Shown here: in pieces, positions 6,864-9,533 of the stretch
How the letters are laid out: every line of letters begins with the position of its first letter
How positions within the stretch are numbered: position 1 is the stretch's first letter
NCBI RefSeq assembly: GCF_000317635.1
Contig: NC_019779.1
Coordinates: 1,736,001-1,800,000 of the forward strand
DNA from: Halothece sp. PCC 7418
GTDB lineage: Bacteria; Cyanobacteriota; Cyanobacteriia; Cyanobacteriales; Rubidibacteraceae
Direction: 5' to 3'
DNA length: 64,000 nt
The notes under the pieces: generated by a model
The model's database searches: none
Told to the model about the DNA's origin: nothing
The model's input: only the letters and a program-made list of their open reading frames with translations
Made by a program: the position numbers and the translations under genes

Positions 6864-8627
6864 CTAGACTGTAGATAACAGTTCTTCTGGTTCTTCAGAT
6901 GTGTTCACAGGAAGATGATGACCAACCGTAGAAGGATTTTCTAAGCCTACTTCATGACAATGGGCTTCAATTCCTAAGCCTTTTCGGGGATATTCTGCAC
7001 AAATCGCTTGGTATTGCGCGATCGCGCTGCCTAACTCCTCACGACTCAACTGATTGAGATAGCCACATTTGCCAATTTCCCCTTTTGGCATCGGTGCTGC
7101 TAAATTTCCCCCTCGTTTCTGCACCATTTTCTCTTGGGCTGCCCAAACGGTTTCTTCGTTCAGTAACACATCATGCCACAGACTCAAACCAAAGGAACTA
7201 ATCAGCTTAAGAATGCGATGGAAATCTTCGTGACTGAGCCAGTTATTGCGATAACTCAAGTACGCGCTAAAGCCCATCCCAACTGCAACTGCGTGTCCGT
7301 GTAACAATCCTGCTTCAATTTCAAATCCAGGAGACCAAGTATGTCCGTAAGCATGAGGACGACACTGATGGGTTTCGTAGAGGTTATCATACTCCGCTTC
7401 CACATAACTCCGCATCGCTGCACCGAGAATTTTCTGAGATAGAACACTAATTTTGTCATTCTGTTCGGAGTTAAGTGTCCCAAAGCGAGTGGTTATTAAG
7501 TCCTCCCCTGCTTCTTCGAGATCACTGAATAATTCCGCATCTTTAACCGCTGCCATCTTCAAAATCTCAGCAATACCATGTCGCAGCCATCCTTCTCGTA
7601 ATGTTTTAAAGAAAGAGCGATCTGTGAGAGAAAGAATGGGTGCGTGGTAAGCCCCAAAGAGATTTTTATAACCAAAGCCATCACAGCAGGTGCGAGGAGA
7701 CGGACCCGCATCAATTCCAGCGACAATAGACGTGGAAAGCATCACATAAGGCGTGTTGCGATGGTATAACGCACAAGCTAAGCCACCTGTATCGGTTAAA
7801 ACGCCTCCACCGACAATTAAAACGGGTTCATTCCGAGAAACCCCCAGACGTTTAAAGTCGCCGAGCATTCTTTCTACCGTATGAATCCCTTTATCCACTT
7901 CCATGGCGCGATAGACGAGTTTATCTAACTGAATTTCGTGATATTCAAAATAATTGTTAATCTGCTCGCCATAGTATTGTTCTACATTCTGATCCACCAA
8001 ACAGACACAGCGACCTAAAGAAATATATAGATCTCTTAAAACCGTCTCTTGCGGATCAAGACAATTTTCCAGCACTTTAATCGAAGTGAAAGTGCTCGCA
8101 CTCATGACCGCTTCCACAGTTTGGTCATCTTCTGTACTGACGACATAACCCCGACTTTGACGATAACTGGATGTGGGATAAACCGCATGAGGATCGGTTT
8201 CCACAAGGCGCGAGGAAAGTTCTTGATAAAATTTCCCATCTTCGCTTTGTAAGAGACAATCCAGCAGTTTGGTTTTTGCGATTTCAGAATGATGGATACG
8301 GTTGGAAAAGCGATACCACTCAGAAGCAGCATTTTCATCAAAACCTGCGATTAATTGCGCTAATAACCCAAAGAAGTGACTGAGAGAATGATTCAGACAA
8401 GTCCGCAGTTGGCGACACGCTGCTAAACCTTCAATCGCTTCTGCTTCAGCAAATTCTTCTCCCAGATCAGGGGAGAACGCATCACTATCAATCAGTGATA
8501 AAAGTAGATGCCTAAAAGGAGTTGTGCCAATAATCGCTTCGACAGCCTCATTTAAGTCTTCCTTGGTTAAAGGTTCATTGTTATAGGTGGCGATAAACGC
8601 TTTTACAGCAGAGGTTGTTTTCGTCAT
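6864..8627 (-). CDS. Sedoheptulose-7-phosphate cyclase family protein with N-terminal extension
   Basis: Belongs to the dehydroquinate-synthase-like sugar-phosphate cyclases that make C7 cyclitols such as 2-epi-5-epi-valiolone or desmethyl-4-deoxygadusol. The cyclase part runs from about residue 182 to 555. It has the NAD motif GGGVLTDTGG (273-282), K321-N322, K357, and the metal ligands E354, H429 (GHTWSP) and H443 (HGHAV). The first 180 residues are an extension the classical enzymes (about 400 residues) lack; I recognise no domain in it. The position equivalent to the first active-site lysine of dehydroquinate synthase reads R312, within PSPRTCCDG. No methyltransferase, ATP-grasp or NRPS partner of mycosporine synthesis is adjacent. 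The valiolone-type reading is favoured over the gadusol type, but product is unproven. Confidence 0.82.
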   Translation of the reverse strand: MTKTTSAVKAFIATYNNEPLTKEDLNEAVEAIIGTTPFRHLLLSLIDSDAFSPDLGEEFAEAEAIEGLAACRQLRTCLNHSLSHFFGLLAQLIAGFDENAASEWYRFSNRIHHSEIAKTKLLDCLLQSEDGKFYQELSSRLVETDPHAVYPTSSYRQSRGYVVSTEDDQTVEAVMSASTFTSIKVLENCLDPQETVLRDLYISLGRCVCLVDQNVEQYYGEQINNYFEYHEIQLDKLVYRAMEVDKGIHTVERMLGDFKRLGVSRNEPVLIVGGGVLTDTGGLACALYHRNTPYVMLSTSIVAGIDAGPSPRTCCDGFGYKNLFGAYHAPILSLTDRSFFKTLREGWLRHGIAEILKMAAVKDAELFSDLEEAGEDLITTRFGTLNSEQNDKISVLSQKILGAAMRSYVEAEYDNLYETHQCRPHAYGHTWSPGFEIEAGLLHGHAVAVGMGFSAYLSYRNNWLSHEDFHRILKLISSFGLSLWHDVLLNEETVWAAQEKMVQKRGGNLAAPMPKGEIGKCGYLNQLSREELGSAIAQYQAICAEYPRKGLGIEAHCHEVGLENPSTVGHHLPVNTSEEPEELLSTV

Positions 8628-8959
8628 GATTGAGTTCTCAGAACAAATTTACAGATGGTGTTACTCAGAAAGCAGCGAATTTGCTTAATATAAGTTAACA
8701 CGCCTCTCATCTTAGAACAGCCCTCCAGTCGGAATTTCTATCTTTCTATAGAGACGGTTTTCTCGGTGTTTTCAAAAAGAGTGATTTTCTGAAAACCAGT
8801 TAAAACAAGCCTTAACAGTGGTGTTATTGACGAAACGAGCAAGGGGGTTAAGACAAAAAATTCCTAGCAGTGGTATCATTCCACCGCCATTATTAGCTGA
8901 TTTTTATCTAATTTTTTATTAATTTTTAACTTAATTTCTGAAAAATTCAGGGTTAATTC
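8628..8959. other. Intergenic region upstream of the cyclase gene
   Basis: About 330 bp of A/T-rich sequence holding the promoter side of the leftward cyclase gene. I see no coding potential, no clear operator and no repeat shared with the rest of the window. Confidence 0.4.
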
Positions 8960-9040
8960 TTAAGTGTGAGGACGCTCGAAATGACGTAAAGTGCCAAAGG
9001 CAATCGCGCCTAGAAATAACAAACTGGCACTGATTACAAC
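8960..9040 (-). pseudogene. C-terminal remnant of a small membrane protein
   Basis: Read leftward, 26 codons without a start encode IVVISASLLFLGAIAFG followed by TLRHFERPHT and a stop at 8960-8962. The hydrophobic stretch followed by a basic tail looks like the last transmembrane segment of a membrane protein. A stop codon lies immediately upstream, exactly where transposon-like DNA begins (about 9041), so the rest of the gene seems to have been cut off. I do not recognise the family. Confidence 0.35.
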
Positions 9041-9055
9041 GATTCAGTCAGAAAG

Positions 9056-9151
9056 CCATCGGCTTCAAACCGATGGACGGGGCTTACAAGCGTCGTCACC
9101 CTCGTTCCGACGACAGCCCCTCATGAATGACAAGGGAGGACTTTAGTCCTC
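9056..9151 (+). ncRNA. Multi-stem RNA-like structure, copy A
   Basis: In order: hairpin 9056-9062/9070-9076; outer stem GGGGCT (9079-9084) with AGCCCC (9115-9120); inner stem GTCGTC (9092-9097) with GACGAC (9109-9114); hairpin GAGGACT/AGTCCTC (9136-9151). The same order, with GGGGCTT-W-CAAG conserved and the inner stem changed on both arms, is found at 55367-55485. Preserved pairing with different sequence supports a structured RNA or single-stranded transposon end. A HEARO/IscB guide-RNA relationship is possible but unverified. Expression is unknown. Confidence 0.45.
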
Positions 9152-9327
9152 TGTGTCTGCTAGAATCGAACAAGCCCAAAGATGGTGAAAAACCCGTCAG
9201 GCTTATTAAAAAAGTAGAGATACAGCTAGACTTTTTTGTTTAGCCAAGGTCTGTAGGGCATCCTTGAACGGGCGCATCCTCACCTTCGCTCCGGCTTCGG
9301 GAGACTCCTTTCTGACACTCGATTTGT

Positions 9328-9390
9328 GATTTTAATCCATTGAGTGGTTTCGATTGGAATCCACGCGATTTTAATCCGTGGAGAGTTCAA
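9328..9390 (+). ncRNA. Orphan omega-RNA-like 3' end of a TnpB element
   Basis: GATTTTAATCCATTGAG (9328-9344) is followed by GAAT and the hairpin TCCACG (9360-9365) / CGTGGA (9377-9382), then GAGTTCAA ending at 9390. The layout (GAATC, stem-loop, GAG, TTCAA) matches the end of the intact TnpB element at 23791-23832 and the orphan at 21801-21864. No tnpB is left beside it. Sequence from 9391 would be the guide if this is a functional end. Confidence 0.5.
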
Positions 9391-9533
9391 GCCGTATCGG
9401 AGTCCCGCTAAAAGAAACACCAAACCGAGCAGTCATTCATCCTTCGATTTCAAACCGAAGGATGAATGACTGATTTTTCTGTAAGGAAGGAGAAATGGTT
9501 AACCCCAAGGGAATCTGGAGAGCGTTCCATCCG

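Follow-up and report, generated by a model that had tools for sequence, protein, structure and literature searches.

What does a sugar-phosphate cyclase make when an arginine stands in its active site at the place of the usual lysine, and when its core is preceded by a region that resembles no recognised domain? The question is raised by an open reading frame of Halothece sp. PCC 7418 that lies within the 64,000-nucleotide stretch of DNA analysed here (the window). The frame begins with ATG, runs on the minus strand from 6864 to 8627, encodes 587 amino acids and contains no internal stops. The features of the gene and of its predicted protein, with their evidence, are as follows.

6864..8627, minus strand: mysA (almost certainly PCC7418_1590), predicted sugar-phosphate cyclase of the desmethyl-4-deoxygadusol synthase type, 587 aa (sequence, Pfam, PDB, fold)
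8178..8627, minus strand: predicted N-terminal helical domain, residues 1-150 (AF2; no Pfam or PDB match; profile search of 194 genomes)
6939..8177, minus strand: cyclase core, about residues 151-563, dehydroquinate-synthase fold (Pfam; structural alignment with 5tpr)
7662..7712, minus strand: motif DAGPSPRTCCDGFGYKN, residues 306-322 (sequence and alignments)
7692-7694, minus strand: codon of R312, which replaces the usual Lys (alignment)
7566..7568, minus strand: metal ligand E354 (alignment with 1dqs; invariant among relatives)
7341..7343, minus strand: metal ligand H429, in GHTWSP (alignment with 1dqs; invariant among relatives)
7299..7301, minus strand: metal ligand H443, in LHGHAV (alignment with 1dqs; invariant among relatives)
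7116..7118, minus strand: K504, in a column with Thr in 5tpr and His in ValA (4p53) (alignment)

The stretch IDAGPSPRTCCDGFGYKN corresponds to residues 305-322 of the cyclase. Upstream of the gene, about 900 bases (8628-9533) hold no open reading frame of at least 80 aa, and this gap should contain the native promoter. A tRNA-Leu (CAG) at 1722-1805 on the minus strand is the sole Rfam or tRNA match within the 64-kb window.

The predicted identity of the protein as a cyclase is far beyond chance. Pfam matches cover residues 240-345 (PF01761, E 4e-17) and 351-492 (PF24621, E 2e-17), and the same scan returned nothing in the first 186 residues. A search of PDB sequences places the desmethyl-4-deoxygadusol synthase (DDGS) 5tpr first (268 bits, E 1e-78), followed by the 2-epi-5-epi-valiolone synthase (EEVS) ValA (4p53, 179 bits), all others scoring at most 86 bits. 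The AF2 model of the full cyclase (mean pLDDT 84.6) gives the same ranking: its core aligns with 5tpr over 380 residues (Z 49.8, rmsd 2.1, 36% identity), with ValA at Z 43.8 and with structures of dehydroquinate synthase (DHQS) at Z of at most 37.5. The alignment with 5tpr spans model residues 154-563, which puts the start of the DHQS fold at about residue 154. The model is unsure at the motif loop, where pLDDT falls below 50 (residues 310-313 and 317-324). The claim of the original prediction that this is a sugar-phosphate cyclase other than DHQS is borne out by these comparisons, and the protein is, as predicted from its sequence, a DDGS-like cyclase and not a DHQS.

The active site was described in the original prediction as retaining all metal ligands while carrying an arginine followed by two cysteines where DHQS has its lysine, and both statements hold. 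E354, H429 and H443, together with G273-G275, are invariant in 58/58 long cyclases (those with the N-terminal region), and K321 and N322 are kept in all aligned cyclases. The motif PSPRTCCDG occurs in all 55 full-length long cyclases (the Halothece protein and 54 others); in a wider alignment R312 is found in 58/58 long cyclases and in 11/11 shorter relatives that share the arginine (short R type). Lys occupies this column in DHQS, EEVS and the solved DDGS; the alignment shows it in 14/14 Lys-type MAA cyclases (a count that leaves out the deviating rows L118 and L119), in L118 and L119 themselves, in 5tpr and 4p53 and in the aroB of the same genome. Column 504 divides the family in a similar way, with Lys in 58/58 long and 11/11 short R-type cyclases, Thr in the 14 Lys-type enzymes and 5tpr, and His in ValA. 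Columns 426 and 504 are taken here to be the two published sites that separate EEVS from DDGS, column 426 presumably being the Ala/Asp fingerprint site and T347 of Ava_3858 the second DDGS fingerprint site. K504, standing where the fingerprint Thr would be, is thus the mark of a putative variant. The exchange of Lys for R312 would keep the positive charge, Lys504 would be a new residue at the specificity site, and the two changes may compensate each other. Short R-type cyclases, though they bear K504, still adjoin mysB or mysC.

A scan of genome contigs yielded 62 loci with relatives of the cyclase, mostly full length. The phylogeny against DDGS, EEVS and DHQS that had been proposed was run as a careful tree of 88 rows, from which fragments and loci of genomes already represented were dropped before counting. 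In one group (15 rows, 96/97) the Lys-type cyanobacterial cyclases cluster with 5tpr; the R types make up the other (69 rows, 100/100), in which the short (99/95) and long (100/99) cyclases are sisters. The R-type group neighbours the Lys-type DDGS clade on a long branch of its own, and EEVS 4p53 and aroB fall outside (100/97). Within the clade that shares both motif and extension, one member has published pathway evidence, the Halothece gene itself, whereas the solved 5tpr lies in the separate Lys-type clade. Order inside the long clade is mostly without firm support; a nesting of Halothece within the clade paired with DUF6492 (see below) appeared in a quick tree only and receives no support from the careful one. 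Two rows first labelled as K type sit on long branches, L118 with EEVS 4p53 and L119 with aroB. The L118 cyclase (L118:4545-5816), which groups with ValA (99/83), has mysC (56%) and an O-methyltransferase of weak similarity as neighbours and perhaps represents an EEVS-based route in a cyanobacterium.

One or two in-frame stops were flagged in 10 of 11 single-place matches of short R-type genes. Each proved to be either the normal end of its gene, following DLGLE or DLGLA, or a stop ahead of the start, and recoding is not needed to account for them; inspection of the DNA of the flagged matches found no stops inside the genes.

The gene is almost certainly PCC7418_1590, the published mysA of mycosporine-2-glycine (M2G) synthesis, to judge from gene numbers, gene order and positions. 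The literature assigns mysA to PCC7418_1590 and the mysB-mysD operon to PCC7418_1078-1076 (PMC12981126). In the same genome mysB (about 1,178,422-1,179,261), mysC (1,176,657-1,177,991) and mysD (1,175,634-1,176,653) are clustered on the minus strand about 0.56 Mb from the cyclase gene, and their order and strand agree with those of PCC7418_1078-1076. Gene number per Mb is 915 at 1077 and 912 at 1590, and the cyclase gene, at 1.743 Mb, lies as expected for 1590. The sole PF01116 match (class II aldolase), at 3.08 Mb, corresponds to 926 genes per Mb if it is H2847, and a class I-like aldolase ORF (named from its sequence) adjoins it, just as H2846 is the neighbour of the class II aldolase H2847 in the accessible part of the published account (PMC7151593). 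The cyclase was originally said to stand apart from mycosporine genes, which is correct for the window; mysB, mysC and mysD are nevertheless present elsewhere in the genome, and the separation was already known.

Introduced together, PCC7418_1590 and the mysB-mysD operon led to M2G in Synechococcus (PMC12981126). H1590 is counted as one of four M2G genes under the name DHQS, and salt raises the expression of H1590, H1078 and H1077, in the portion of PMC9374696 available. On the other hand, Anabaena variabilis that had lost its DDGS still contained MAAs, according to the accessible text of PMC4426668. Since the four genes were expressed jointly and MAAs survived DDGS loss, M2G in the host is by itself no proof that this cyclase supplies the core. 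R312 and K504, which differ from solved DDGS, are a further counterpoint to the DDGS role.

Genome layout bears on this point. Halothece and six further genomes (L003, L004, L011, L022, L026 and L028) each have a mysB-mysC locus with no cyclase adjacent in the stretch read. Besides the long cyclase, those six have no other close cyclase (the rest are at most 29% identical), and neither does Halothece. Cyclase-free mysB-mysC loci together with a single close long cyclase indicate that the long cyclase, also when paired with DUF6492, most likely supplies the MAA core in Halothece and the six genomes, as far as can be predicted from gene content.

Taken together, there is a high probability that the protein is the mysA product of Halothece sp. 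PCC 7418, an NAD- and metal-dependent cyclase that provides desmethyl-4-deoxygadusol for M2G, of an R type with an extra helical domain. MysA would convert sedoheptulose 7-phosphate into desmethyl-4-deoxygadusol. MysB, MysC and MysD, encoded 0.56 Mb away, would then methylate this compound and add two glycines to give M2G, which would act as a sunscreen and minor salt-stress solute. The identification with mysA means that the sunscreen or osmolyte, at first offered only speculatively, has been published as what this pathway makes (PMC12981126; PMC9374696 in the portion available), and that the proposal of a cyclitol not described for cyanobacteria is not supported for this gene.

Two other enzyme classes have to be weighed against this assignment. 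That the protein simply serves the shikimate pathway as a dehydroquinate synthase has practically no chance of being correct: automatic names do call it 3-dehydroquinate synthase, and the DHQS label of H1590 points the same way, but the automatic names come from NCBIfam DHQS models whose matches all lie far under their cut-offs (aroB 135.9 bits against 305). Moreover, the only other gene of the genome with PF01761 above cut-off is a separate aroB-like gene at 0.73 Mb (169.8 bits), and the cyclase has P433, shared by DDGS and EEVS, where aroB has His. It is also quite improbable that the enzyme is not a DDGS and makes 2-epi-5-epi-valiolone (or 2-epi-valiolone) for an MAA or other cyclitol pathway. 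ValA is the second-ranking solved relative by both sequence and fold, K504 departs from the Thr of solved DDGS at a column where EEVS has His, and MysA is termed EEVS in some MAA papers, according to the accessible part of PMC11378024. Two residue sites are reported to distinguish EEVS from DDGS (PMC4426668, in its accessible text). With ValA, a solved EEVS, as the single reference, A426, W431 and H445 of the cyclase disagree with the D, F and E of that enzyme and agree with 5tpr and all 14 Lys-type MAA cyclases. The tree also keeps Lys-type DDGS and the R types on one side and places EEVS 4p53 outside with L118 (100/97, 99/83), and the gene belongs to the M2G gene set (PMC12981126). A DDGS role in M2G synthesis is therefore the reading retained here.

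The N-terminal region was originally described as an extension of 180 residues matching no known domain. The extension is real and unrecognised, but its length is closer to 150 residues, given the start of the fold at about residue 154. The structure prediction that had been suggested gives a confident helical domain for residues 1-150 (mean pLDDT 92.5, pTM 0.88, about ten helices), and short R-type relatives, which have no such domain, align from about residue 112-150 onwards. Sequences from 29 of the 62 loci went into the alignment for structure modelling. Within residues 1-150 there is no Pfam match at E 1; a profile of the domain found nothing significant among PDB sequences (best E 0.48, 27 residues of ApcE), and fold searches gave a best E of 2.7 with Foldseek, a best Z of 3.3 with VIA and a best E of 0.64 with a viral library, a null result that does not prove the fold to be new. 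Weak Pfam matches, KNOX1 among them, were set aside, being found on one to three other family members and not on the Halothece protein. Conservation is lower in the domain than in the core (mean identity with the Halothece protein about 0.5 versus 0.7 to 0.8), yet R72, R75, L141, P146 and H147 are invariant in 45 sequences. A profile search of 194 genomes found it in 21, always at the places of long cyclases, two of them split by frame breaks. An apparent stand-alone copy, a 113-aa ORF in L130 next to DUF6492, is a remnant of a broken long cyclase: at L130:6761-7168 (minus strand) the N-terminal remnant, with stops, lies beside an intact DUF6492 gene, and a separate long cyclase sits in the MAA cluster of that genome. 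The domain shows no obvious catalytic signature, and a structural or partner-binding role, probably in oligomer or partner contacts in front of the core, is a guess from the model.

Elsewhere in the family the long cyclase keeps other company. DUF6492 genes adjoin it at 41 of the 62 loci, mysB and/or mysC at 16, both at L043 and neither at six. Among these six, L053, L057 and L064 are fragments, are cut or lie where a contig ends, and L011, L022 and L028 all have mysC elsewhere in the genome. The DUF6492 gene, for about 340 aa, directly follows the long cyclase at L003:6410-7465 and at 40 further loci, in cyanobacteria that for the most part lack mysB and mysC. Of 12 fetched short R-type loci, 11 have mysB and/or mysC beside the cyclase, as do 14 of the 15 scanned loci with non-cyanobacterial titles, whose host names may be wrong because they are mostly metagenome bins; both counts favour the MAA role assigned to the Halothece gene. 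HAD and TauD genes also occur in these clusters. Such genes have been reported in MAA clusters by a preprint which, in its accessible part, describes them as absent from Cyanobacteriota clusters (GATOR-GC, PMC11888242); in contrast, a cyanobacterial MAA locus (L134:3735-8786) has HAD and TauD upstream of mysB-mysC-mysD, and in L099 they precede a short R-type cyclase and mysB.

Co-occurrence was counted in 388 genomes of the cyanobacterial class, of varying completeness, with mysB accepted at 160 bits or more (the next matches score 141). Long cyclases occur in 41 of these genomes, the short R type in 12, K-labelled cyclases in 49 (including the genomes of L118 and L119), mysC in 66, mysB in 66 and DUF6492 in 36. 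mysC accompanies the short R type in 11/12 genomes and the K type in 47/49, and the long cyclase in 7/41, a frequency that for the long cyclase does not exceed chance expectation (Fisher p = 1, 388 genomes). The remaining 34 of the 41 genomes have neither mysC nor mysB (0/34), and therefore the family cannot serve MAAs only. DUF6492 is present in 32 of these 34, the two others (G059 and G312) having split or cut cyclases. Overall, DUF6492 and the long cyclase occur together in 35 genomes and DUF6492 occurs in one genome without the cyclase (p = 2e-42, a value that ignores relatedness). The two genes are adjacent in 33 of the 388 genomes, 32 of which have no mysC and, in every case, no mysB; G082 is the sole adjacent-pair genome with mysC. 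Among 14 named DUF6492-paired genomes tested for mysC, it was present in three (L003, L004 and L026) and absent from 11.

The DUF6492 protein matches PF20102 (33.9 bits against 22.9) and has no match among PDB sequences. Because D122 and D124 (D-x-D) are invariant in 21/21 aligned members, its sequence hints at a glycosyltransferase, perhaps a metal-dependent one; the glycosyltransferases published for MAAs are of other kinds, according to the accessible part of PMC11378024. If the long cyclase supplies the MAA core, strains lacking mysB and mysC would use theirs to make the same or a similar product, which would then be handled by DUF6492, and such DUF6492-paired strains may make a non-mycosporine product.

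How the Halothece gene relates to this pairing can be read in more than one way. An older cyanobacterial role together with DUF6492, which the mysB-mysC-mysD of Halothece later shared or took over, perhaps with a second product, is rather unlikely. The 41 paired loci and the 33 class genomes with the pair speak for it, as does a Pleurocapsales clade (100/99) in which two DUF6492-paired and three separate long cyclases are intermixed, the three separate ones having mysC elsewhere; pairing has therefore changed within that clade. However, the Halothece genome has no match to DUF6492, the careful tree gives no firm deep order in the long clade and no longer nests Halothece, and non-cyanobacterial members are mostly in MAA clusters. 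A joint reading of the long R-type cyclase and DUF6492 is put forward tentatively, at somewhat less than even chances: that in many cyanobacteria (Leptolyngbya, Nodosilinea, Xenococcus, Hyella and others) the two form a two-gene pathway of their own, the cyclase making desmethyl-4-deoxygadusol or a close relative and DUF6492, perhaps a metal-dependent glycosyltransferase, turning it into a UV-absorbing or protective compound other than an MAA; that in some strains, including Halothece, the same type of cyclase feeds mysB and mysC, either in place of this role or in addition to it; and that the N-terminal domain has a new fold confined to this cyclase.

With regard to novelty, the extra domain and the Arg motif are not mentioned in PMC12981126 or PMC9374696, as far as their available text extends. 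Within open-licence literature, nothing on the R type was found under the N-terminal extension of MysA or its active-site residues, no paper naming the short R type was found, and DUF6492 gave no hit; within that literature both the long R-type form of the enzyme and its two-gene cassette with DUF6492 look new. The gene in the window can be regarded as settled: it encodes the cyclase for the MAA core in a cyanobacterium that tolerates salt, a function already published, and an R-type MysA with an extra domain is defined, proteins of this kind being called 3-dehydroquinate synthase by naming tools. Strains that have the long cyclase but lack the rest of the sunscreen pathway offer a small, testable system of two genes in which a new natural protectant might be sought, and a MysA-like gene alone is no sound evidence for MAA production in them. 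The DUF6492 cassette is the part most worth following.

Among known systems, PCC7418_1590 of Halothece sp. PCC 7418 (Aphanothece halophytica) is most probably the present gene itself. Short R-type MysA (PSPRTCTNG, 42-46% identical, 11 loci in the tree) shares R312, C314, K504, P424 and H425 with it but has T315 and N316 in place of C315 and D316, has no N-terminal domain and, unlike the Halothece gene, is nearly always found beside mysB or mysC. Ava_3858 of Anabaena variabilis (5tpr), a Lys-type MysA, has in common the DHQS fold, the metal ligands, GHTWSP, HGH and A426; it differs in its Lys at the R312 site, its Thr at the K504 site and its lack of the N-terminal domain, and genes of its class adjoin mysB in most fetched loci, whereas the Halothece gene does not. 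The EEVS ValA (4p53) shares the sedoheptulose 7-phosphate cyclase fold and P433, but its overall similarity is lower, and where the Halothece protein has A426, W431, H445 and K504 it carries D, F, E and H. Finally, the EboD clade of sugar-phosphate cyclases belongs to the same superfamily and also occurs in cyanobacteria, but is set apart by its description in the accessible part of PMC5133447, where EboD is a member of a six-gene ebo operon; no ebo operon is seen beside the Halothece cyclase.
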